DNA of 20,660 bases from a virus, in the IMG/VR virus record IMGVR_UViG_3300045919_000325, positions 1 through 20,660 of that record; one strand, 5' to 3'. The notes beneath the pieces were generated by a model, which was not told the DNA's origin, ran no database searches, and saw only the letters and a program-made list of their open reading frames with translations. Below, piece by piece: positions 5,417 through 20,660 of the stretch. Position 1 is the first letter of the stretch. Each line of letters begins with the position of its first letter. Both the position numbers and the translations under genes were made by a program.

Positions 5417-6877
5417 ATGACACCTAAAGAAAAAATATTAGAATTGGTTAAAAACAAACCCAAGCACTTTGGTATTTTGATTAAAAAAGATCCTATATTA
5501 TGGAATTGGGTACAAGAGAATTCTAAAATAACTGCTAACCAAGATTCCATCTCTGCTAAAATTTATAGTGCTATTAATGAAGTTTCAGATGTTTGTGAAA
5601 GAGGCAATATCAAAAAATACACTCGTTGGTCTGAAGGATTTGCTAATTGTGGTCCAGCAGCTATATGCGAATGCACTAGAAATAGATTAACCCAAGCGTG
5701 TATGTTAGCTCAAAAATCCAAGACACAAGAACAAAAAGAGCATACCGAAAATAAAAGATGCCAAACAATGATCAAAAAGTTTGGTGTTGCATATAGCTTT
5801 CAACGCCCAGAAGTTAAAGCTAAAATCAGTGCACCAAAAATTGATCCAGCAATTTTTAATAAATTAATTGATAAAGATTGGATGTATCAGGAATATGTAG
5901 TCAATAAAAGATCTGCCGCAGATCTAGCTAATGAATTAGGTGTATATTATTCTACTGTATTAGATTATTGTAACCAACATGACTTTACTATTCGAAGAAC
6001 TAGTGGATATTCTGTTGAAGAAAAACAAATCAGCAATTATTTAAGCGAGTTAGGAATACATCACGAAACCAGTGACTGGTCAGTTCTTAAAAAATTAGAA
6101 CTTGATATTTTTGTTCCAAATAAAAATTTTGCTATCGAGATGAATGGATTGCGATGGCATGCATTCAATCCAAACTTCAAAAACCCAGATGGGTTAAAAC
6201 TTGAAGATAGCGAACGGCATATACAAAAAACCAAATTTGCACAAGATCGAGGCGTGACTTTATTTCATGTCACTGATTGGGAATGGAACAACAAACAAGA
6301 TATTATTAAGGCTCAATTAAAAAGCAAATTTGGATTAAACAAAAAAATATACGCTAGAAATTGCAAACTTAAAGAAGTATCATCAAAAGATGCTAGAGAA
6401 TTTTTAGACAAATTTCATCTTCAAGGATTCATAGGAAGCAAATTTTATATCGGATTATATTATGCCGACGAACTTGTAATGATATTATCTGCAGGAAGAC
6501 ATCGATTCGATAAAAAGTTCGATGGTGTAGAAATACACAGGATATGTTCTAGATCAGACATAACAGTTGTCGGTGGAGGATCAAAACTTGTATCTTATCT
6601 TAAAAAGAATATTAACGGCACAATCGAAACATATTGTGATATACAAAAGTCCACTGGAGCCGGTTATCTAGCCATGGGATTTACTTTAAAAGATATATCT
6701 AAGCCAGGATATTTTTGGACCGATACTAAACATATCATTCCGAGATGGAAGGCATCTAGAACTGAACTAAAGAAATGGCTTATTAATTATGATCCATTGA
6801 AAGAAGAGCATGAAAATATGTGGAACAACAAATATGCTCGTTATTATGATTGCGGTAATTATGTGTTTCGTATATAA
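5417..6877 (+). CDS. Free-standing homing endonuclease, PD-(D/E)XK / Vsr-like (EDxHD type)
   Basis: This 486-aa protein has the build of phage mobile endonucleases. A Cys cluster (C60, C78, C84, C86) suggests a zinc-binding element. 'MIKKFGVAYSFQRPEVKAKI' (118-137) is the linker motif common in such proteins. Residues 162-194 (SAADLANELGVYYSTVLDYC) form a helix-turn-helix. The nuclease core is E201-E202, then LELDIFVPNKNFAIEMNGLRWH (D230, E241-x-N243, H248), then FHVTDWEW. A C-terminal domain (~311-486; ARNCKLKEVSSKDAREFLDK onward, ICSRSDITVVGGGSKLVSYL) accompanies this core in other phage homing endonucleases. It would cut a cognate site in related phages lacking the gene and be copied in by repair. 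Codon use is more AT-rich than in its neighbours, as expected for an invader. It converges on the major capsid gene, a frequent place for such insertions. The exact subfamily is uncertain. Confidence 0.8.
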   Translation: MTPKEKILELVKNKPKHFGILIKKDPILWNWVQENSKITANQDSISAKIYSAINEVSDVCERGNIKKYTRWSEGFANCGPAAICECTRNRLTQACMLAQKSKTQEQKEHTENKRCQTMIKKFGVAYSFQRPEVKAKISAPKIDPAIFNKLIDKDWMYQEYVVNKRSAADLANELGVYYSTVLDYCNQHDFTIRRTSGYSVEEKQISNYLSELGIHHETSDWSVLKKLELDIFVPNKNFAIEMNGLRWHAFNPNFKNPDGLKLEDSERHIQKTKFAQDRGVTLFHVTDWEWNNKQDIIKAQLKSKFGLNKKIYARNCKLKEVSSKDAREFLDKFHLQGFIGSKFYIGLYYADELVMILSAGRHRFDKKFDGVEIHRICSRSDITVVGGGSKLVSYLKKNINGTIETYCDIQKSTGAGYLAMGFTLKDISKPGYFWTDTKHIIPRWKASRTELKKWLINYDPLKEEHENMWNNKYARYYDCGNYVFRI

Positions 6878-6941: not shown

Positions 6942-8144
6942 CTAGAGGAACTTCAAGTTTGTTGTGTTAACGCCGATACCAGCCAAGTAGTCAGCAGCAT
7001 TACCCAAAGATGATGCTGTGTTGCTTAGTTCGATATAACCATATCTGGTCATAAAAGAAACTACTGGTTCGAATGTTTGTGGGTCAATAACAACGCCTGA
7101 GCTTGTTAGTGGGACCCATGGGCAGTAATAGGCTGCGGCATCAATCTCGCCGGGCCCCTTATAACCAACCAATACTGCTGTGTTATCAGCGGCATATTGG
7201 TCAACATAAACGCGCATGCTGTTGTTCAAAGTACCAACAAACTTGGTGTTGGTTGGAGCTTCGAATGTGCCTTCTGTTGTACGTGCAAAAGCTGAAGTAG
7301 TAGCACTCTGTAGGATGGTAAGAGCAGTTGGGGAAACCACAACCCAGTTACCAGCGCCACGGCGTGTACGTGCAGCGATCAAGTTAGCACCACGATTGAT
7401 TAGAACTGCTAGAGCAGCATGTTCGTCACCAACGTATGTTGCTGTACCGCTTACTGCGCCTTGGTCGTATGTCAATGTAGTACCAGCTAGTGTACGCAAG
7501 CTGACCAAAATTTCTTGGTCAATTTCAGCAGTAATTTCTTGAGCCAAAGCGGCCATGATTTCTGCTTCAATGTCGATACCTTGTTGAGCTTGTGCATCTT
7601 GCACAGCTTCAAAGGTCCAACGTGCGGACAACTTACGTGTTTTTGCTTCAACAGTTTCACGCAAGATTTGGATGTTCAAACGCTTACCAGCAGTACCTTC
7701 GAGAACGCTAACTGGTGCGGCCTTTGGAGTTGTGCTGTTGCCGTTACCTGAATAGTAACGAGCAATTTCGAATGGACTTAGAGCTTCTGCACCTGGAACA
7801 GTTGCAGTTGGTGTTCCGAATGCATCAGCATAACGAACACGCAATGTATGGATTTGACCAACTGGGCCGGTCATTGGCTGAACGCCAATGATTTCGTTGG
7901 CAATAACAGTTGGCATAACACGACGGATAACAGGCAAAATCACTTTGTTAAGTGTTGCAATGTTACCAGCGCTGGTAGCACCGGCACTAGCAGATTCTGT
8001 TAGCATTCCGCCATTAGAAGCTTGCATGTGACGCTTTGTATTTTCTAGGACTACTTCCATGACCTTTTTACGATTGCCAGTCAAACCATCGCATAGTGCA
8101 TTTTTGGTAGCGCCCCAATGTGTTTCGAAGAGGTTCTTACTCAT
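6942..8144 (-). CDS. 23: Major capsid protein, gp23-like
   Basis: The 400-aa product forms the hexamers of the head. The gp23 family signature is VILPVIRRVMPTVIANEIIG (69-88) followed by VQPMTGPVGQIHTLRVRYAD, and the C-terminal FMTRYGYIELSNTASSLG also fits. I place the start at ATG 8144 rather than an upstream in-frame ATG at 8270. MSKNLFETHW is preceded by GGGAGA at good spacing, and the longer form would overlap the scaffold gene by 125 bp. The site GGMLTE|SASAG (after E50) fits the (L/I)-x-E rule of the T4 prohead protease, so about 50 residues should be removed on maturation. T4 gp23 is 521 aa, so this is a compact version, probably lacking the insertion domain. It follows the scaffold gene by 1 bp. 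Confidence 0.93.
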   Translation of the reverse strand: MSKNLFETHWGATKNALCDGLTGNRKKVMEVVLENTKRHMQASNGGMLTESASAGATSAGNIATLNKVILPVIRRVMPTVIANEIIGVQPMTGPVGQIHTLRVRYADAFGTPTATVPGAEALSPFEIARYYSGNGNSTTPKAAPVSVLEGTAGKRLNIQILRETVEAKTRKLSARWTFEAVQDAQAQQGIDIEAEIMAALAQEITAEIDQEILVSLRTLAGTTLTYDQGAVSGTATYVGDEHAALAVLINRGANLIAARTRRGAGNWVVVSPTALTILQSATTSAFARTTEGTFEAPTNTKFVGTLNNSMRVYVDQYAADNTAVLVGYKGPGEIDAAAYYCPWVPLTSSGVVIDPQTFEPVVSFMTRYGYIELSNTASSLGNAADYLAGIGVNTTNLKFL

Positions 8145-8145
8145 C

Positions 8146-9375
8146 TTAATTCTCCCTAACTTGGTTGTTAACGCCTGCGAGGTGAAGAATTTGCGCAATG
8201 TCATGATTGGCACTGCGGTCATCTTCTGTAGTAGACTCCACAAGCTTGATTGAACGATTGCCAGTAGCAACAGTTCGTGTTTGAACGTTTTCGGTCAACT
8301 CTCGTGGACCTGCATTGTTCATTGCATTACCGTTAACCACGGCTGGCAAATAGCGATTGAATGCTTCTTTGAGGTTAGCAGTTTTAACACCTGCTAGCAT
8401 TTCAACCATTATTGTCTTCTTTTCTCTGTTCAAAGGACCAGTCAATTCGTTTAGTACTTCCAAACGCTGAGCACGTTCAGTTGCCTGTTGTGCTGTTTTC
8501 TTAACTGACTCTGTAAGAGCTTGCTGTTGTTTAACTGCTTGATCCTTCTTTGCGATGATCTTGCGGCTTTCAGCAAGTTGATGTTGTAACTTCTTAACTT
8601 CACTTCCTTCGCTGAGATAGCTAGCCATATATTCACTAGCAACTGCTTCGAAGATTCTACGACCAAAGTTGTTCTCACGAGCAACCTTGATATCTTGACG
8701 CCACTGAGAAAGCTCTGCACGAATTACTTCGTTCAAAGTCTTGTCCAGCATGTGTGTTGCACGAGCAACAAACTTGTCACGACTCTCTTGAATTTTCTTA
8801 CGACCTTGTGTAGCCAACTTGACACGCTGCTCAACGAGTGAACGCTTGTCAGTTTGGAACTCAGTAAGTTCTTCACTAAGTTGTTTTAGAACAAATGTTT
8901 CTAGCTTACTAACTCGCTCGCTTACAGCGCTCTTAGTGCTATTTTCCAACATTTGAATTTTGCGTGTCATTTGCTTTCTCTCTGCAATCAACTGCTTACG
9001 GTCAATTGCAAATTCTGAAATTTCTTCTTCTAGTTGTTGAGTTATAAACTTGTTTAGAATTGCCATATGCTTACGCATCTTTTGTTCATAAACCTTTTTT
9101 GCTTCAAGAGTTGATCTTGAAAGTTTAACTCTCTGCTGATTTAATGATTGTCTATCTTGGTTGAATTCACGCAATTCAGTGGCGATAGCATCGCTCAACA
9201 TATTGTCCATTGCTTCAACTAGTACTGCTTTGTCATGTGCATAACGTGCAGCATAGTCTTCTTGCAATTTGGTTTCTGCTAGTTTAATTTTAGTATCAAA
9301 TGCTTCTTGTAGTGCAGTCTTAACATCTTGGCCAAGTACTTCATTTTCAAGAAGGTCTGTCAATGCATCTTTCAT
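8146..9375 (-). CDS. 22: Prohead core scaffold, gp22-like
   Basis: This 409-aa protein is almost wholly charged helix: heptad-like coiled coil runs from ~20 to ~300 (LNQQRVKLSRSTLEAKKVYE; LAESRKIIAKKDQAVKQQQA). A C-terminal region holds GPLNREKKTIMVEMLAGVKT, which matches the end of T4-type gp22. The function is to build the internal core around which gp23 assembles; gp21 then degrades it. Many L-x-E tripeptides fit that fate. It is longer than T4 gp22 (269 aa), and the N-terminal half appears to carry several repeats of a 'F..D++.L..+R..+' coiled-coil unit (EFNQDRQSLNQQRVKL, EFAIDRKQLIAERKQM, EFQTDKRSLVEQRVKL), which suggests expansion by duplication. The start overlaps the protease stop as ATGA, with AGGGAG upstream. 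Confidence 0.88.
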   Translation of the reverse strand: MKDALTDLLENEVLGQDVKTALQEAFDTKIKLAETKLQEDYAARYAHDKAVLVEAMDNMLSDAIATELREFNQDRQSLNQQRVKLSRSTLEAKKVYEQKMRKHMAILNKFITQQLEEEISEFAIDRKQLIAERKQMTRKIQMLENSTKSAVSERVSKLETFVLKQLSEELTEFQTDKRSLVEQRVKLATQGRKKIQESRDKFVARATHMLDKTLNEVIRAELSQWRQDIKVARENNFGRRIFEAVASEYMASYLSEGSEVKKLQHQLAESRKIIAKKDQAVKQQQALTESVKKTAQQATERAQRLEVLNELTGPLNREKKTIMVEMLAGVKTANLKEAFNRYLPAVVNGNAMNNAGPRELTENVQTRTVATGNRSIKLVESTTEDDRSANHDIAQILHLAGVNNQVREN

Positions 9376-11520: not shown

Positions 11521-14500
11521 TTAGAAGCCTTCTAAACCTGTACCAGATGTAGCAGAATTAGTTGCCTCGTCACTTACTGCGTTTTGCGCTGTTGATGCCT
11601 CGGGTGGTATTTGAGTTGGGCTTTGTTCTCCTCCTGGAGGTGCCCCAAAGTCGCCGCCATTAAACTCTGGTCTGACACCCACTGCACTCAATCCAAGTTG
11701 ATTGTTGTCTGTTGGGCTTTGTCCTGTCTTCTGTTGCACCTTACTGGCATTTTCTTGCTTCCACATCATTTCGTTCTCTAGAACTTCTTCTTCGGTCCAT
11801 CCCAGATAACGCATCAATGCAAAGCGTTGACTGATATACTTGGCTGCAGCAGTGCCCATGATGCTGCTGAACACGCTGATGCGCTCGCTATCAATCTGCA
11901 TCTGTCTATATTCTCCAAAGCTCTGAGGCGGCCACATCTGCAAGTCAAACAAATTGCTTTGGATTTCAATACCTCTGTCTTTGATAAACATTTTGAATTC
12001 ATGATCCAGCACAGGACTGATCAAGTTCTGAAGTCGCTGACAGTATTTTGTAAACGCAAACTCTTGCACATACGCTGTGCCTATCTTACCGTCGTTGTAC
12101 ACAGTGGTTCCGTCGTCTGCTCCAGTGGGCAAATAGCTGCTGGGAATACCCAATCCTCTGATCATCTTGTTATTGAAATACTTCAAGTCGTCAATCTGAC
12201 CCAAGTTTTCGCCGCCTGCTAGGTTTTCAATCTTTGTTCCCTTGCCGTCAGCATTGGTTGCCAAAAAGAAGTCTTCATTGATACCTATGGGATTGTATGA
12301 AGCGTCGATGGCCGAGTTGAAAGTATATACTCCGCTCTCTAAAGCAAATGTATGATACGTATGATATTGTTCTTTGCCATCGATTGTTATTGTACCAACA
12401 TCCATTGTATCAGAGCGATAAGTTATTTTAACAACTTTATGATTAAACAATGCCAATTTATCTTTAAAATCGTTCCAATGTGCATACCCAAAATCATGTA
12501 GCATTACTCTCAAAGTATTAGATGTGAACTTATCAGGGTTATTATTACCCTTTGTGCTAAAGTTTAGTTTTTTATATAATGACATAAAATTTTCATCAGA
12601 ATTAATGTACATTACCACATCTGATATTGTATTAATATTATGTTTCTGTACCGCATTGACAATGTTTTGCAGCATAGAAATATCCCATTTAATTTTTCTT
12701 GATGGGTTAACAATTGAGCGACCTCGACTTTTTAAAAATTGCTTCCAACTGTTAAATCCATGATACCTTAATATTTTTCTAAAAGATTCATAACAGATAG
12801 TCGAATGAGCAAATTTAACTATTTTTTTATCATTAGGTATATTGATTGCAGAATAGTGATTAATCAACTCTAAATTATTATTAATAGCTGTTAGCATGTC
12901 TGATACCGTTGGTTTTTCTAATGAATCAAATACTTCGCATATTTTTTTAAATAATAGTTCATCTGATGTTATCTTTTGATTCGGCCATGGTTTATCCATC
13001 TGCGTATTTGCGGCGTGCCATTGCTGTATGCGCTTATTATATTCATTAATATCTGTTTCACGCAGTTTTTTTGCTCGAAATTTCATTGCATTAGAACGTT
13101 TAATATGCGAATTTATTTTTTCTTTTTCAGAACGAACTGATAAAGTCTTTAATCTTTTGGTTACTATGGCATCTAACTCTTCTTGTGATTTAGATGCCAT
13201 AGTTCTTCGACCTTTTGCTATAATTTCAAGCTTTTGTTCTTCAGTTAAGGTGTTCCTAAATTCCCTAGCATAATATGCATGTAACTGCATATGATCATAA
13301 CAATTCATATAATATAAATTACTTGGAGAGTTGTTATACTTATTAAAATCTTTATGATGTATTACTCTCTTATTGCCAGTAATATCACTATTAAAAGTCA
13401 TTTCATTTTGTATGTTTTGTTTTTTAAAGAAGTTCGCTACAACACGATGAGTGAATTTCCATGATTTAGATCCGTGGTCAAACACTTGATGGTATTGTGG
13501 ATCATCGATTTTATTTTTCTTATATTCGTTAATAGAATGTAATCTTGTATTAAAACTAATTAAACTGTCTTCACCAACAATAATATCTTTTGCTTCTATT
13601 TTTCCTCGACCCAATACAGGAAATTTGTGATCAGGTGTACAAGTAATAATTTGTCCATTGTCTAATTCAATATCAATTACCTCCGCATCTTTTCTAGTTA
13701 TGCCAGCCCATGTGATAGGCCCTGGAACCATTTTACCAGTAGTTGGATCACAAGAATATGCCCAATTTATCTTACCTAATTCGTATTCGTTTTTTAGATC
13801 TAAGATAGACAATGTTCTTCCATCCAACAATGGAACACGAGTTGACATATCGAAGCATGCTCCCCCACCAGTGCGGTTTGGAATACGTCTCTGATATATT
13901 TCATTCTTAACACGTTCCACAAATCGCATGGCACGTTCACCACTCAAGCTGCCCACATCAATATAGAATACTCGTCGTTCTGGTGCTCGAACAATACGGT
14001 AGATAACAATAGCATCTTCCAGCAAATCCTTTTGCTTGTATACTTTGTATATGTTTTCCAAAATACTGGTACCAAAAGGCCATTGTCCGTCAAGTCCCTC
14101 ACTCAGGCTCAAATGTACTACGTGGATACCATCCACTGCTGCACTGTCACCGTCATTAAGGAAACGACTGTTTCTGCCAGCAGTACTGTGTACTCCTTGG
14201 TTTATGGATCCGGATCCAATACCAGTGTTGGCATTGCGAGGAACACCTGTTGGGAAGGTATAAGAATCGTGTACCAACATGTTGGATCCAACCAAGCTCA
14301 TTAGGTTGAAGTCCAAATTTCGAATCACATATTGTTCGATCTTTTTGCCTTTGGATTCGTTAACAATGATCTTGTCCACATTGTTGGGATCAATCCATAT
14401 CAATTTGAATGTTTCTGGATCTCGGATATATATCTGATCTCCATATTTCAAAGTGTTTCTAAATGTTCTCCAAAGTCTTTTCTGCCATTCATTCAAACTG

Positions 14501-14844
14501 CACCATTGACTCAGAGACTCTTTAAGAATTTTAATTTCGGTTTCTGTTAAAGAGCCTTTATAAACCAAAGTAAATGGTTGATCATCAATACCAAAGTTCT
14601 GTGTACTGAAATCACTTAGAACGTTTAATGCCCTACTGATCTCACTGTCGGCGTCCATTTGGTCATACGCAACATACCTTTCCACACGATTCGGAGCACC
14701 ACTATAAACCTCTGGCAAGAAGCTATTAAACTTACCAGAGGTAATACCCTGTCCAGATTCATCTTTGGAATGTTCACTATGAACATGTTTGTTGACTCGT
14801 GCTGTGGACGGGACTGCTGAGAAATATCTATGCCATCTGGCCAT
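11521..14844 (-). CDS. 20: Portal protein gp20 interrupted by an in-frame intein
   Basis: The 1107-aa precursor contains a 593-aa portal plus a 514-aa intein (residues 330-843). Portal hallmarks in the N-extein are SRALNVLSDFSTQ, DPNNVDKI and VHLSLSEGLDGQWPFGTSIL, then LLEDAIVIYRIVRAPERRVF. The C-extein has INEDFFLATNADGKGTKIEN and LAGGENLGQIDDLKYFNNKM, matching the gp20 'EDFW..R..G.GTEI..L.GG.NLG' segment. Twelve portal subunits form the packaging vertex and the nucleus for prohead assembly. T4 gp20 is 524 aa; the C-terminal tail here is low-complexity (P/Q/G/S/T). ATG 14844 has CAGGTAG upstream and a GGTAAATA box. The intein must be removed for function; the splice would join NRTGGGA to SAIDASYNP. 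Confidence 0.92.
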   Translation of the reverse strand: MARWHRYFSAVPSTARVNKHVHSEHSKDESGQGITSGKFNSFLPEVYSGAPNRVERYVAYDQMDADSEISRALNVLSDFSTQNFGIDDQPFTLVYKGSLTETEIKILKESLSQWCSLNEWQKRLWRTFRNTLKYGDQIYIRDPETFKLIWIDPNNVDKIIVNESKGKKIEQYVIRNLDFNLMSLVGSNMLVHDSYTFPTGVPRNANTGIGSGSINQGVHSTAGRNSRFLNDGDSAAVDGIHVVHLSLSEGLDGQWPFGTSILENIYKVYKQKDLLEDAIVIYRIVRAPERRVFYIDVGSLSGERAMRFVERVKNEIYQRRIPNRTGGGACFDMSTRVPLLDGRTLSILDLKNEYELGKINWAYSCDPTTGKMVPGPITWAGITRKDAEVIDIELDNGQIITCTPDHKFPVLGRGKIEAKDIIVGEDSLISFNTRLHSINEYKKNKIDDPQYHQVFDHGSKSWKFTHRVVANFFKKQNIQNEMTFNSDITGNKRVIHHKDFNKYNNSPSNLYYMNCYDHMQLHAYYAREFRNTLTEEQKLEIIAKGRRTMASKSQEELDAIVTKRLKTLSVRSEKEKINSHIKRSNAMKFRAKKLRETDINEYNKRIQQWHAANTQMDKPWPNQKITSDELLFKKICEVFDSLEKPTVSDMLTAINNNLELINHYSAINIPNDKKIVKFAHSTICYESFRKILRYHGFNSWKQFLKSRGRSIVNPSRKIKWDISMLQNIVNAVQKHNINTISDVVMYINSDENFMSLYKKLNFSTKGNNNPDKFTSNTLRVMLHDFGYAHWNDFKDKLALFNHKVVKITYRSDTMDVGTITIDGKEQYHTYHTFALESGVYTFNSAIDASYNPIGINEDFFLATNADGKGTKIENLAGGENLGQIDDLKYFNNKMIRGLGIPSSYLPTGADDGTTVYNDGKIGTAYVQEFAFTKYCQRLQNLISPVLDHEFKMFIKDRGIEIQSNLFDLQMWPPQSFGEYRQMQIDSERISVFSSIMGTAAAKYISQRFALMRYLGWTEEEVLENEMMWKQENASKVQQKTGQSPTDNNQLGLSAVGVRPEFNGGDFGAPPGGEQSPTQIPPEASTAQNAVSDEATNSATSGTGLEGF
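12316..13857 (-). mobile_element. Intein with HNH homing endonuclease, inserted in the portal gene
   Basis: The intein runs from C330 (block A, CFDMSTRVPLLDGRTLSILD) to N843, with S844 as the +1 residue. Block B is GQIITCTPDHKFPVLG (T403-x-x-H406). Block F/G is YHTFALESGVYTFN|S. The nuclease is of HNH type: VIHHKDFNKYNNSPSNLYYM then H518 and H522. Between the nuclease and the splicing C-terminus lie two similar ~80-residue helical units (about 627-707 and 722-798), probably DNA-recognition modules. The residue before the final Asn is Phe instead of the usual His, which may slow or alter Asn cyclisation. Codon use is clearly more AT-rich than in the exteins. Splice point inference rests on conserved inteins; the start Cys and end Asn-Ser are unambiguous in context because removal restores a continuous portal sequence. 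Confidence 0.92.
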
Positions 14845-17505: not shown

Positions 17506-17513
17506 TATTTATG
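17506..17513 (-). promoter_or_regulatory. Late promoter CATAAATA ahead of the tape measure gene
   Basis: The minus strand reads CATAAATA, identical to the box before gp21, about 75 bp upstream of the tape measure ATG at 17430. It overlaps the alternative upstream ATG of the divergent gp26-like gene. Confidence 0.5.
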
Positions 17514-17525
17514 CAGGTAAAAATC

Positions 17526-18380
17526 ATGGAAAATTCCAACCCACTCAAGAGTTATTTTAGACAACCACATATATTTCTTAAACTACCAACTGGCAACAGA
17601 TGGTACACAGAGCAAGATGTGGACACCAGTATATCTGAATTACCTATCTATGCCATGAGAGCAATTGACGACATCATGCTGAATACTCCGGATGCCATGT
17701 TGAACGGACATGCCTTGTGGGGCGTGATCAGTAGTTGTGTGCCTTCGATCAAAAATGTAAAGAACATCAAGCTTCCAGACTTGGATGCTATCTATGTGGC
17801 AATCAAAGCCAGTACTCATAATGGTGTTGTGGAATTGAAAAGAACCTGTGCATCCTGCAATGAAGAGAATCTGCTGGAGTTGAATTGTCAACACCTATTA
17901 GATACCATGACCGTTGTGGAAGAAAGTGATTGCAATGTGGAACTAGATGGTCAGTTGCTGATTCAAATACAACCATACAATTTAGAGATGAAGCAAATGT
18001 TCATGCATCATCAATTTGAAGAAGAAAAGACCATTAAGATTTTGAACATGTCCAATCCAAATCAAGATGAATTTGCACAAGCAGCTATGATAGCAGAAAG
18101 TGTGGAGAGACTGAGCCAACTAACTTTTGAATTGGTATCCAAAAGTATCACCGGAATCAAAATTATTGAGAGCGATGTATTAGTTGATGATCCCAAATGG
18201 ATCAATGAATGGTTACAGAGTATCAGCAAAGAACAAGCTGACCAAGTAATCACAGCAGTCAACACATTAAACCAAATTGGTATTAATAAAAATATAACCA
18301 TAAGTTGCAGCAACTGTGCAGCGCAATGGCAAGAAACATTGGATTTCGAGCCCACAAGTTTTTTCGACAAACGCTCTTGA
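17526..18380 (+). CDS. 26: gp26-like baseplate hub / tail assembly protein (T4_baseplate family)
   Basis: The zero-frame product is 284 aa from ATG 17526 (AGG 8 nt upstream); an in-frame ATG at 17511 would add five residues but has no ribosome site. The family pattern is clear: 'LKLPTGNRWYTEQD', a D-D-x-x-L-N-T-P stretch with NGHALWGVISSCVPSI, then IKLPDLDAIYVAIKASTHNG and the first Cys pair (CASC). A second pair (CSNC) lies 20 residues before the end, so a zinc ribbon is likely. In T4, gp26 belongs to the baseplate hub/hub-assembly set beside gp51 and the tape measure gp29. Here it lies divergent from the tape measure gene. A slippery heptamer at its 3' end suggests a longer -1 frameshift product. 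It may act as a tape-measure chaperone instead of a structural hub protein; that is inference. Confidence 0.75.
   Translation: MENSNPLKSYFRQPHIFLKLPTGNRWYTEQDVDTSISELPIYAMRAIDDIMLNTPDAMLNGHALWGVISSCVPSIKNVKNIKLPDLDAIYVAIKASTHNGVVELKRTCASCNEENLLELNCQHLLDTMTVVEESDCNVELDGQLLIQIQPYNLEMKQMFMHHQFEEEKTIKILNMSNPNQDEFAQAAMIAESVERLSQLTFELVSKSITGIKIIESDVLVDDPKWINEWLQSISKEQADQVITAVNTLNQIGINKNITISCSNCAAQWQETLDFEPTSFFDKRS
18359..18365 (+). promoter_or_regulatory. Predicted -1 ribosomal frameshift site T TTT TTC
   Basis: Zero-frame codons here are AGT TTT TTC GAC, so the heptamer T-TTT-TTC is in exact X-XXY-YYZ phase, five codons before the zero-frame stop. Slipping back one base continues as CGA CAA ACG and stays open for 80 codons. 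A possible downstream stem, TGGGATC (18383-18389) with GATTCCA (18401-18407), has 7 bp including one G-U but starts 17 nt away, farther than usual. Confidence 0.6.
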
Positions 18381-18609: not shown

Positions 18610-19179
18610 TTATCGAATCCTTAAACTTTTTCTAGCATCTTCTATATCTTTATAATCCGTTTGGTTAATAATTCGATTTGACACAGGAGTTAAGAATTTA
18701 TCCGCTGACACAGCATTAAAGTTTATTCTGTACCAATCTAAGATGTTTCTTCCTCGAGCTTTGGCAAAATAACATTGTCCGTTTGGATTAGCAAGAACAG
18801 TATCACATATCAGACTGATATGTGTGCCATTATGCAATCTACCAATGAATATATACTTGTTATGATGAATCATTAAGCTATTAGATATATCTCTATCATA
18901 ATTAAATATTAAAACAAAACCATGTGCATCCAATACATCATCGGTTCTTTGTAAGATTTTATAAGACACAGTTCCTAATCTACCGCTACAATCTTCGCCA
19001 GGGCGCCAAGGATCCACATCTTTTTTAGGACTTGGACTAACATTTCCTGAAGGACTTGGACTAATTTTATCATTTGGTATATTTTTACGATCTGTATCTA
19101 TGGATATATCTGGTTCAAAATCATTTTCAGATATCTGCTCTAATAATGTTATTAATTTTCGAATATCTGCACTTGACAT
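18610..19179 (-). CDS. Uncharacterised late protein, 189 aa
   Basis: I place the start at ATG 19179 (AAAGG 7-8 nt upstream). An upstream ATG at 19200 would fall almost on the transcript start from the TATAAATA box at 19207-19214. The N-terminus MSSADIRKLITLLEQI is an amphipathic helix, followed by an acidic segment and a short S/P repeat (SPSPSGNVSPSP). A mixed domain then follows (WRPGEDCSGRLGTVSYKILQ, HGFVLIFNYDRD, YIFIGRLHNGTHISLICDTV), with no motif I recognise. An exact late promoter argues for a virion or assembly role. It is convergent with the frameshift gene, with only 2 bp between stops and no terminator visible, so the transcripts may overlap. Confidence 0.75.
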   Translation of the reverse strand: MSSADIRKLITLLEQISENDFEPDISIDTDRKNIPNDKISPSPSGNVSPSPKKDVDPWRPGEDCSGRLGTVSYKILQRTDDVLDAHGFVLIFNYDRDISNSLMIHHNKYIFIGRLHNGTHISLICDTVLANPNGQCYFAKARGRNILDWYRINFNAVSADKFLTPVSNRIINQTDYKDIEDARKSLRIR

Positions 19180-19206
19180 TTTAATCCTTTTAAAGGTCAT
19201 TTGTTC

Positions 19207-19215: not shown

Positions 19216-20082
19216 GCCTTGAAGCTGGCGGTGCCAAGCCGCATATATTATCTTCAAGGCCTACCGGCCAAACCCATGGTCTTCTTAACGAAGTTTACGG
19301 CCAGAGCCGATATTTCAGATTGATTTTTCTGGCGGCGCAGCGAAGCGAGCAGAGCCGAAGAAAAATCAATCTGCAGACGAACTGCGCAGCAGTTCGGCTA
19401 GAAGACGAACCAAGAAACATAAAAATTTCAGATAGAATTATGGCAATAAAAATTTTTTGATTTTTTTTTAGAAATTTCAATTTGTATGAATTTCTTAATA
19501 ATGCGGTTGCATCATTCTCAGTCCGAACTACGTTCGTCCTTTGTTGGGTTTTGTTCTCGTTGTCACTCGACCAGTTCAACCCAACAATGTTGTCTTTATA
19601 TATTATTCTTTGATTATTATCGTTCAGGTACAGTACTCCCTCTTGGGAGTCATACATGTCCAAGACATACATCACACAGTTCCTTTGTGGATTGTTTACC
19701 ACTTGCTGGCGGAGTACCTAGTTTCCAGCTTTCGGAACCAAAACTCTGAGATTTCTCTCATACTCGGTCAGAGGATTCTCACCTCCACTACAATATCTGC
19801 AGATGTGATGTGCTGCGTGATACTGCATCGTGTAGCAGAGTTCACCGGTACACGATCCTTTGCGTCATTTTCCTAGCAGGGGCTTATGACAAGCAATCCC
19901 TCAAGCGTGATGGTCCGTGGTTGCGTCCCAGTGGCACGAGTGGCACCAGTTCAACTGGGTTACCACCATTCAAGGCTAGTATGTTAAACTCACTATTTTT
20001 GCTTTAGATGGTTACTCATCCCTATAGACGAGCAAGCAACGGGGTGCCCTATGGCCGATTAAAAATTAAGATGCTTGTCATA
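19216..20082 (-). ncRNA. Candidate large structured noncoding RNA (strand tentative)
   Basis: About 0.87 kb without a credible gene, but packed with perfect inverted repeats. They are GCCTTGAAG 19216/19252 (9 bp); a 15-bp stem 19316-19330/19359-19373; CGAACTGC-gca-GCAGTTCG 19378-19396; CGAAC-tac-GTTCG 19524-19536; TTGTTGGGTT 19541/19578 (10 bp); ACTCCC-tctt-GGGAGT 19635-19650; ATCGTGTA 19827/19849 (8 bp); CCAGT-tca-ACTGG 19946-19958; and TATGACAAGCA 19885/20072 (11 bp closing a ~200-nt domain). The minus strand is favoured: TGAGA-GAAA-TCTCA (19747-19760) presents a GNRA loop only there, and CTCGTC...GATGAG (20015-20032) has a G-U pair that would be A-C on the plus strand. Size, ornateness and phage context recall GOLLD/ROOL-type giant RNAs, but identity is unproven. 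Short ORFs in it have no ribosome sites. The promoter is not identified. Confidence 0.6.
19316..19373. repeat. 15-bp perfect inverted repeat around a GC-rich loop
   Basis: CAGATTGATTTTTCT (19316-19330) and AGAAAAATCAATCTG (19359-19373) enclose 28 bp containing GCGCAGCGAAGCGAGC and an inner GGC/GCC pair. It is the strongest single hairpin in the noncoding region. AGAGCCGA occurs both just before it (19303) and within its loop (19351). Confidence 0.85.
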
Positions 20083-20218
20083 CCTATGTACGATCAAACA
20101 ACACGCAAACGTTTTACCGCTTACATCATTACTTTATTATATATCACATGCCAGAGTCAAATAGAAAAATAATCTTTTTAAATTTTTTTGAATATATTTT
20201 CAAGCAGTTAAAACTATA

Positions 20219-20231: not shown

Positions 20232-20660
20232 ATGAAACTTAGTGAAATAACACAACCCAACAAACCACTATACGTAAGTAGAAAGTTGTTGAATGCTCAA
20301 GAATTATATCTTTGGGCCAAATTGCAAGGATGGGACAAACCTTTAAAACCCAAGGACATGCACGTGACTGTGGTTTCTTCTAGCACTCCTATTAGTTGGA
20401 CTCAGTTGCCTCCACAGACCAATACATTGACTGTTAAACCAATCCGTGCAGCAGTGAAAATTTTTGGAGAGAATAAAAATTCAGCAGTGTTTATTTTTGA
20501 ATGTCCAGAGCTGCATACCAGATGGCAGCAGTTCCTAGACATGGGTGCTAGTTGGGATCACGGAACATATACACCACACGTTTCATTGACATATAATCAT
20601 GGATACATTGAGCAAGATTTGGATACCATGCCATTGTTCTCTGGAGATTTAATACTGGGT
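20232..20660 (+). CDS. acb1: 2H phosphoesterase, likely Acb1-type anti-CBASS nuclease (C-terminus beyond the right edge)
   Basis: 143 residues are visible. Two H-x-T/S motifs define the 2H phosphoesterase fold: H44-V-T46 (KDMHVTVV) and H116-V-S118 (YTPHVSLTY). The spacing and context, LYVSRKLLN near the N-terminus and 'W-DHGTYTPHVSLTYNHG' around the second motif, resemble T4 gp57B/Acb1, whose catalytic residues as I recall are H44/T46 and H113/T115. Acb1 cleaves the cyclic oligonucleotide signals made by bacterial CBASS immunity, so infection is not aborted. T4 Acb1 is 152 aa, so only ~10-20 residues should be missing. MKLSEITQP is a plausible phage N-terminus; no Shine-Dalgarno is visible, so the start is less sure. 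Other 2H enzymes (RNA ligase-like cyclic phosphodiesterases) share the motifs; the Acb1 assignment is likely but not proven. Confidence 0.7.
   Translation, partial: MKLSEITQPNKPLYVSRKLLNAQELYLWAKLQGWDKPLKPKDMHVTVVSSSTPISWTQLPPQTNTLTVKPIRAAVKIFGENKNSAVFIFECPELHTRWQQFLDMGASWDHGTYTPHVSLTYNHGYIEQDLDTMPLFSGDLILG

Follow-up and report, generated by a model that had tools for sequence, protein, structure and literature searches.

The window analyzed here is an entire IMG/VR record of 20,660 bp, and its gene content corresponds to a T4-like phage cluster of head and tail genes. The gene for the capsid protein gp23 is located at 6945-8270 on the minus strand, beside a homing-endonuclease-like gene (5417-6877, plus strand), and the gene for the portal protein gp20 (11521-14844, minus strand) carries a probable intein, as suggested by matches to a splicing domain and an HNH domain that were both below the cut-offs. 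The gene termed bph, a member of the T4 baseplate family, is present at 17511-18380 on the plus strand and is followed by a gene without an assigned product (18610-19200, minus strand), directly upstream of which is a T4-late-promoter-like box, TATAAATA (19215-19208, minus strand). The record ends with an Acb1-like anti-CBASS gene (20232-20660, plus strand; PF23474, E = 5e-28), which adjoins the RNA described below; the same Acb1 neighbor was also found at L127 and L135. The closest capsid relatives of the window include contigs of 450-610 kb, and the nearest isolates by capsid are Sinorhizobium phage Phosso, PA5oct, and the GAP32/121Q group.

The stretch from 19216 to 20082 had been proposed, in a sequence-only reading, to be a gene-free region of about 0.9 kb that holds a giant structured RNA, preferably on the minus strand. 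Perfect stems were indeed present, with lengths of 15 bp (19316-19330/19359-19373), 11 bp (19885-19895/20072-20082, arms 176 nt apart), and 10 bp (19541-19550/19578-19587), together with further, shorter ones. Folding against dinucleotide-preserving shuffles of the stretch gave a z score of -6.84 for the minus strand, compared with -4.68 for the plus strand, and none of 20 shuffles was as stable as the native sequence on either strand. The longest ORFs in the stretch encode 135 aa (GTG, minus strand) and 111 aa (TTG, plus strand), neither of which had a match in PHROGs or Pfam. The former had no relative in the fetched loci, and no frame open across all homologues was found, in agreement with the earlier statement that credible ORFs are absent.

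Homologues were identified in capsid-related contigs by nhmmer and blastn, which located the element in two relatives, at a distance of about 9-10 kb upstream of gp23, and further IMG/VR members were retrieved using the loop motif GCUGG-AANUAGG-YRYKC-CGCCNGC (RNA). Twelve distinct sequences were aligned to construct a covariance model, R1, from which the pseudoknot PK1 was left out. In each phage record searched, R1 detected a single copy, invariably at this locus beside the gp20/gp23 cluster, and it matched the core in the window with 87.1 bits (E = 9e-17), a match expected by construction, the window being in the model alignment. In alignment A3, changes on both sides were observed in 17 of the 28 pairs, and the covariation score was 0.314, compared with 0.139 for shuffled alignments and no more than 0.133 with the partner strand slid; none of 500 shuffles reached the score. 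PK1 was paired in all 25 sequences in spite of its absence from R1, and it occurred in four versions (GAGUG/CACUC, GAGUA/UACUC, GAACG/CGUUC, and GCGUG/CACGC). In single-sequence folding, the RNA strand was better than the opposite strand, relative to shuffles, in 11 of the 12 members. Homologues and covariation were both found on the minus strand, as the earlier reading had favored, and covariation in homologous regions, which it had set as a test, was present in A3, PK1, and PK2. The gene-free stretch encodes a real, conserved, folded phage non-coding RNA. Three pattern matches (L124, L125, and L129) were rejected as family members, having neither the conserved neighbors nor the core, and the marginal R1 matches L160 to L162 were left out.

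The conserved RNA extends, as delimited by homologues, covariation, and synteny, from P0 to P12 at about 19979-19520 on the minus strand, to which all positions in this paragraph refer. The idea of a large, ornate phage RNA was borne out, but not its extent over the whole 867 nt. The 5' end of the RNA probably lies further upstream, at about 20130-20080, and both ends are approximate. In the conserved fold, a 5' domain is closed by P0 (19979-19975 with 19877-19873, CUAGC/GCUAG; CUGGC/GCCAG and UUGGC/GCCAA in relatives) and contains P3 (19901-19898 with 19881-19878, AGGG/CCCU; CAGGG/CCCUG, CGGGAG/CUCCCG, and CCAAGG/CCUUGG in relatives), and it is followed by a core, P4 to P9, locked by two pseudoknots. 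P4 consists of 19856-19849 paired with 19834-19827 (AUCGUGUA/UACACGAU; AUCACAG/CUGUGAU and others in relatives), and P5 of 19825-19819 paired with 19797-19791 (CAGUAUC/GAUAUUG), with a loop that carries the 5' strand of PK2. The best-conserved part, comprising P6, PK1, P7, and P8, is the R1 match at 19681-19795. P6 (19786-19782 with 19774-19770) is followed by P7 (19760-19756 with 19751-19747, UGAGA-GAAA-UCUCA), and the GAAA capping P7 is the GNRA tetraloop that had been noticed previously on the minus strand. P8 has an outer helix (19739-19734 with 19683-19678, GGUUCC/GGAACU), which appears in relatives as CAUCC/GGAUG or CACCC/GGGUG, and an inner helix (19705-19729, GCUGG/CCAGC), the loop of which is the most conserved of the family; a hairpin between the P8 strands, P8b (19687-19702, GUGG/CCAC), has another sequence in relatives and is still paired. 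PK1 joins the linker between P6 and P7 to the P8 loop, by pairing of 19765-19761 (GAGUA) with 19716-19712 (UACUC), as supported by the pairing count and the variants. PK2, of 8 bp, joins the P5 loop (19811-19804, ACAUCACA) to the segment just 3' of P8 (19676-19669, UGUGAUGU). Further 3' lie the P9 hairpin (19650-19645 with 19640-19635, ACUCCC/GGGAGU), P11, which is the 10-bp stem (19587-19578 with 19550-19541) and is represented by unrelated stems at this position in relatives, and the P12 hairpin (19524-19536, CGAAC-GUA-GUUCG).

P0, P3, P4, P5, P9, and PK2 are present in each of the 12 distinct members, with differing sequences and nearly constant spacing, and their strands are almost all fully paired. 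Mismatches were observed in P5 (L104 and L110) and in P8 (the L111 clade), and the L128 clade has one in PK2, which leaves 6 of 7 pairs. P0-P5, P9, and PK2 were aligned by hand, which selects complementary strands, so that these pairing counts are descriptive; controls exist for the covariation of PK1 and A3 and, in the form of a shuffle test, for PK2. In the latter, the summed length of PK2 over eight representatives was 54, compared with a mean of 32.8 and a maximum of 43 in 2000 shuffles, although PK2 of L104 taken alone was at the chance level. In relatives, PK2 appears as UGUGCAUA/UAUGCACA, UAUGCAUA/UAUGCAUA, CAUGCCGUG/CACGGCAUG, and GCUGAAUA/UAUUCAGC. Altogether, the distinct homologues form ten helices and two pseudoknots that interlock, with numerous compensatory changes, and both pseudoknots are present in the window and covary within the family.

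Some elements around the conserved RNA are of a different nature. The 11-bp pairing, which had been described as closing a domain, is real in the window (reached by none of 300 shuffles), but the relatives have no equivalent of it, and it was rejected as a family feature. It connects, on the minus strand, the P3 loop (19895-19885) with a sequence 190 nt upstream (20082-20072), possibly as an extension specific to this lineage. Upstream of the RNA, there is a weak sigma-70-like promoter candidate (20131-20160, minus strand, TTGACT-18-TAAAGT), and a scan for such promoters gave no more than chance. The hairpins at 19216-19410 seem to be a separate module outside the conserved RNA. They include, at 19316-19400 on the plus strand, two adjacent hairpins, the 15-bp stem with GCGAAGC in its loop and then GAACUGC/GCAGUUC; L127 and L135 have a similar hairpin, and the pair resembles the 3'-terminal P11-P12 hairpins of the type-C RNAs described below, but on the opposite strand.

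The position of the RNA is conserved. In the family represented by R1 (family A), bph is the convergent downstream gene, at 0.8-1.25 kb, in every member whose contig includes this neighbor, and the portal gene follows further on; the window likewise shows convergent bph and then portal and gp23. A gene-free stretch is present at the same place in many other huge-phage contigs, among which a group termed type C has the P8 loop GGUACCGG-ACAAC-CGCC, a pattern that gave at least 120 stretches in IMG/VR. Rfam assigns type C to Polynucleobacter-1 (RF01718) with about 69-120 bits; the match spans only 141 nt at the 5' end, and the full RNA, of about 400-500 nt, is represented in the RF01718 model by its 5' part alone. 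Downstream of the Rfam-covered part, type C has a PK1-like pseudoknot, GUUGU/ACAAC, in 72 of 74 sequences, with GUUAU/AUAAC in one of the two remaining variants, and a covariation scan of 70 sequences revealed a second, PK2-like pseudoknot, GCGU/ACGC. In type C, bph is convergent at 0.8-4 kb in all of the 45 loci listed, of 90 with neighbors, and the portal gene lies behind bph wherever the contig extends that far. In all, the RNA was found beside capsid genes in more than 100 uncultured large phages.

A further covariance model, R2, was made from the 3' domain of type C alone. Over 333 kb, R2 gave five matches at E < 5, of which those in L145, L111, and L136 fell exactly at the family-A core (E = 4e-4, 2e-3, and 0.012, respectively), and those in L116 and L119 were also upstream of a bph gene. 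R2 did not match the RNA in the window, although it matched these three relatives; R1 did not match type C, and RF01718 gave nothing above the gathering cut-off (37 bits) in the window or the family-A records. Because the three models miss across the window and type C, the link between them runs through the L111/L145 clade, which is recognized by R2, together with synteny and the shared double-pseudoknot topology. On this basis, it is highly likely that the window RNA and Polynucleobacter-1 diverged from a single RNA and form a superfamily, a link that is good and is not proven for the window alone. The RNA thus groups with the full-length Polynucleobacter-1 form and does not stand as the isolated new class that had been considered. 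The two RNAs share the place upstream of convergent bph and the portal/capsid cluster in T4-like large phages, the strand direction, the topology of the two pseudoknots, and a similar P8 loop ending in GG-PK1-CGCC, whereas their sequences are otherwise hardly alignable and those of PK1 and PK2 differ. Polynucleobacter-1 was tabled in 2010 for "Burkholderiales, fresh water/estuary," as possibly cis-regulatory ("y") and with no function (Weinberg et al, 2010; PMC2864571), and it is named only there in the literature searched, most subscription papers lying outside that scope, so that prior notice of the full-length form is possible. In a review of jumbo phages from 2026, PhiKZ is the only phage for which non-coding RNA is mentioned.

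Another feature in common is a duplicated single-stranded motif that flanks P9 in type C and in most family-A relatives, including L127 and L135, the nearest relatives of the window; it was not recognizable in the window. The two copies were concordant in all 66 cleanly parsed type-C sequences, counting four in which the regular expression had shifted the first copy, with the core pairs GGAU/GGAU (40), AGAU/AGAU (20), and single cases of GCAU/GCAU and GAAU/GAAU; the remaining pairs look like misplaced matches of the regular expression, and four of these are AGAU/AGAU. This concerted variation, with an identical variable core in both copies, can be seen, for example, in L187, L179, and L118. 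A covariation search for a pairing partner of the motif gave no clear pairing.

The window, L103, and a type-C RNA had no blastn match among 50,697 phage records, R1 had no credible match in PA5oct, Phosso, GAP32, and a Vibrio phage, and the family-A core pattern was not found in bacterial genomes. The type-C core gave six matches in 84,980 bacterial and archaeal genomes, each a 17-nt piece under R2 and taken as chance, and, because it was absent beyond these pieces, the window-type and type-C RNAs appear to be phage elements. RNA-like regions in syntenic positions were observed in the gap of L109 that lies some 1.0-1.8 kb before bph and in Phosso (L164:3050-4060). These two share the motif GCCGCUGG..UGAGCAA..GGAGUAACGA..CGACCGUCCUG, with 73% identity over 67 nt, have no Rfam match, and are possibly another branch of the same RNA. 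PA5oct also has a syntenic, gene-poor, RNA-like region, in which tiny ORFs are annotated (L165:9982-10930, about 75798-76746 of the record), directly preceded by a consensus sigma-70 promoter, TTGACA-17-TATAAT; the RNA-Seq-based ncRNA features in its GenBank record exclude this gap. The RNA-like gaps of PA5oct and Phosso are, at most, candidate relatives of the window RNA.

Regarding the nature of the element, a decayed or frameshifted protein gene has practically no probability: the 135-aa and 111-aa ORFs do overlap the region, but they are without protein-family or, for the former, locus relatives, no frame is open in all members, and the pattern of changes is compensatory. A run of independent hairpins, such as terminators and repeat-derived stems, without a common fold would describe the outer part, where the hairpins at 19316-19400 appear to form a module of their own, and P11/P12 could be a terminator, but the long-range pairings P0, P8 outer helix, PK1, and PK2 covary at nearly constant spacing in all members, making such a run very improbable for the conserved RNA. 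By Rfam covariance search, the RNA in the window is not GOLLD or ROOL, as had been suggested, nor is it HEARO or another Rfam family: the search gave no relevant family at the gathering cut-off or, on the region alone, at E up to 5, and its only results were unrelated weak matches (E of 0.8 or more). A diverged member of GOLLD or ROOL would also be a large, ornate, phage-associated RNA with pseudoknots, and GOLLD has a loop-linker pseudoknot as well (PMC12286853). However, the GOLLD model (RF02032) matched neither the window nor the RNA loci of the relatives, the ROOL model (RF03087) had no match in ten records, in a search made without a positive control, and the window RNA has no tRNA island, neither tRNA nor tmRNA being found near it. 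Furthermore, true GOLLD is present separately in two related jumbo phages, Phosso (L171, 33533-34001, 187 bits) and the 518-kb G013 (L173, G013:C1:153462-153918, 234 bits), and in the latter the window-type RNA is at 415.7 kb, 262 kb from GOLLD at 153.5 kb. Membership in either class is, hence, scarcely conceivable. The hallmark of GOLLD is a 14-mer nanocage.

What we observed of the RNA is its fold, its strand, its single copy per searched record, and its fixed place, and we consider it likely that the minus strand at about 19979-19520 encodes a large non-coding RNA, belonging to a T4-like jumbo phage, that is a diverged form of the Polynucleobacter-1 RNA. The gene arrangement suggests that it is probably transcribed during infection and acts in trans as a folded RNA, because no downstream gene has a constant orientation, the next gene being convergent in relatives, and the downstream gene in the window has its own TATAAATA box. 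A cis-regulatory element, that is, a leader or 3'-UTR structure of a neighboring phage gene, would agree with the tabling of Polynucleobacter-1 as cis-regulatory (PMC2864571), with the same-strand gene that ends 300-370 nt before the core motif in most relatives, and with the same-strand gene downstream at some type-C loci. It is, nevertheless, unlikely, as bph downstream in family A is convergent, the downstream gene in the window begins 320 nt further on behind its late-promoter-like box, Acb1 upstream is divergent, and the size and the two pseudoknots would be unusual for a leader. The RNA could tentatively be of an assembly or scaffold type, as an RNA-protein particle or an RNA oligomer with a part in the assembly of the virion or in packaging, because its position next to the head genes is maintained in more than 100 phages and because most relatives carry the duplicated P9-flanking motif in two copies with the same variable core. 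The matching cores are what two identical docking sites would predict, and the motif might represent such twin sites. A packaging or assembly RNA functionally analogous to the phi29 pRNA is a rather doubtful alternative. The fixed place beside the portal, scaffold/protease, and capsid genes, the one copy per record, and the docking-like motif may point to it, but position alone is weak, and the analogy comes from gene position only: pRNA showed no link in sequence or structure, and its structure and phage type are unrelated. The phi29 pRNA is a phage structural RNA of 174 nt, and T4-type packaging is not known to require an RNA.

This study extends an orphan lake-water motif of 141 nt, reported in 2010, to a large RNA with two pseudoknots that occupies a fixed place next to the capsid genes in more than 100 large phages; the full size and the phage home of the Polynucleobacter-1 RNA had escaped notice. 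One phage of 518 kb carries two different large RNAs, the window type and GOLLD. The conserved place offers a concrete handle on the function of such RNAs, and, if the regions in Phosso and PA5oct prove to be relatives, the function would become testable in culturable jumbo phages. It is conceivable, as a speculative extension, that a single RNA of ancient origin and rapid evolution, kept within the head-gene cluster of jumbo T4-like phages, is represented by both the window RNA and full-length Polynucleobacter-1 and is directly engaged in making the virion, as a scaffold, in packaging, or as a component of an RNA particle. If true, this would represent a new kind of phage assembly RNA, which coexists with GOLLD in some phages.
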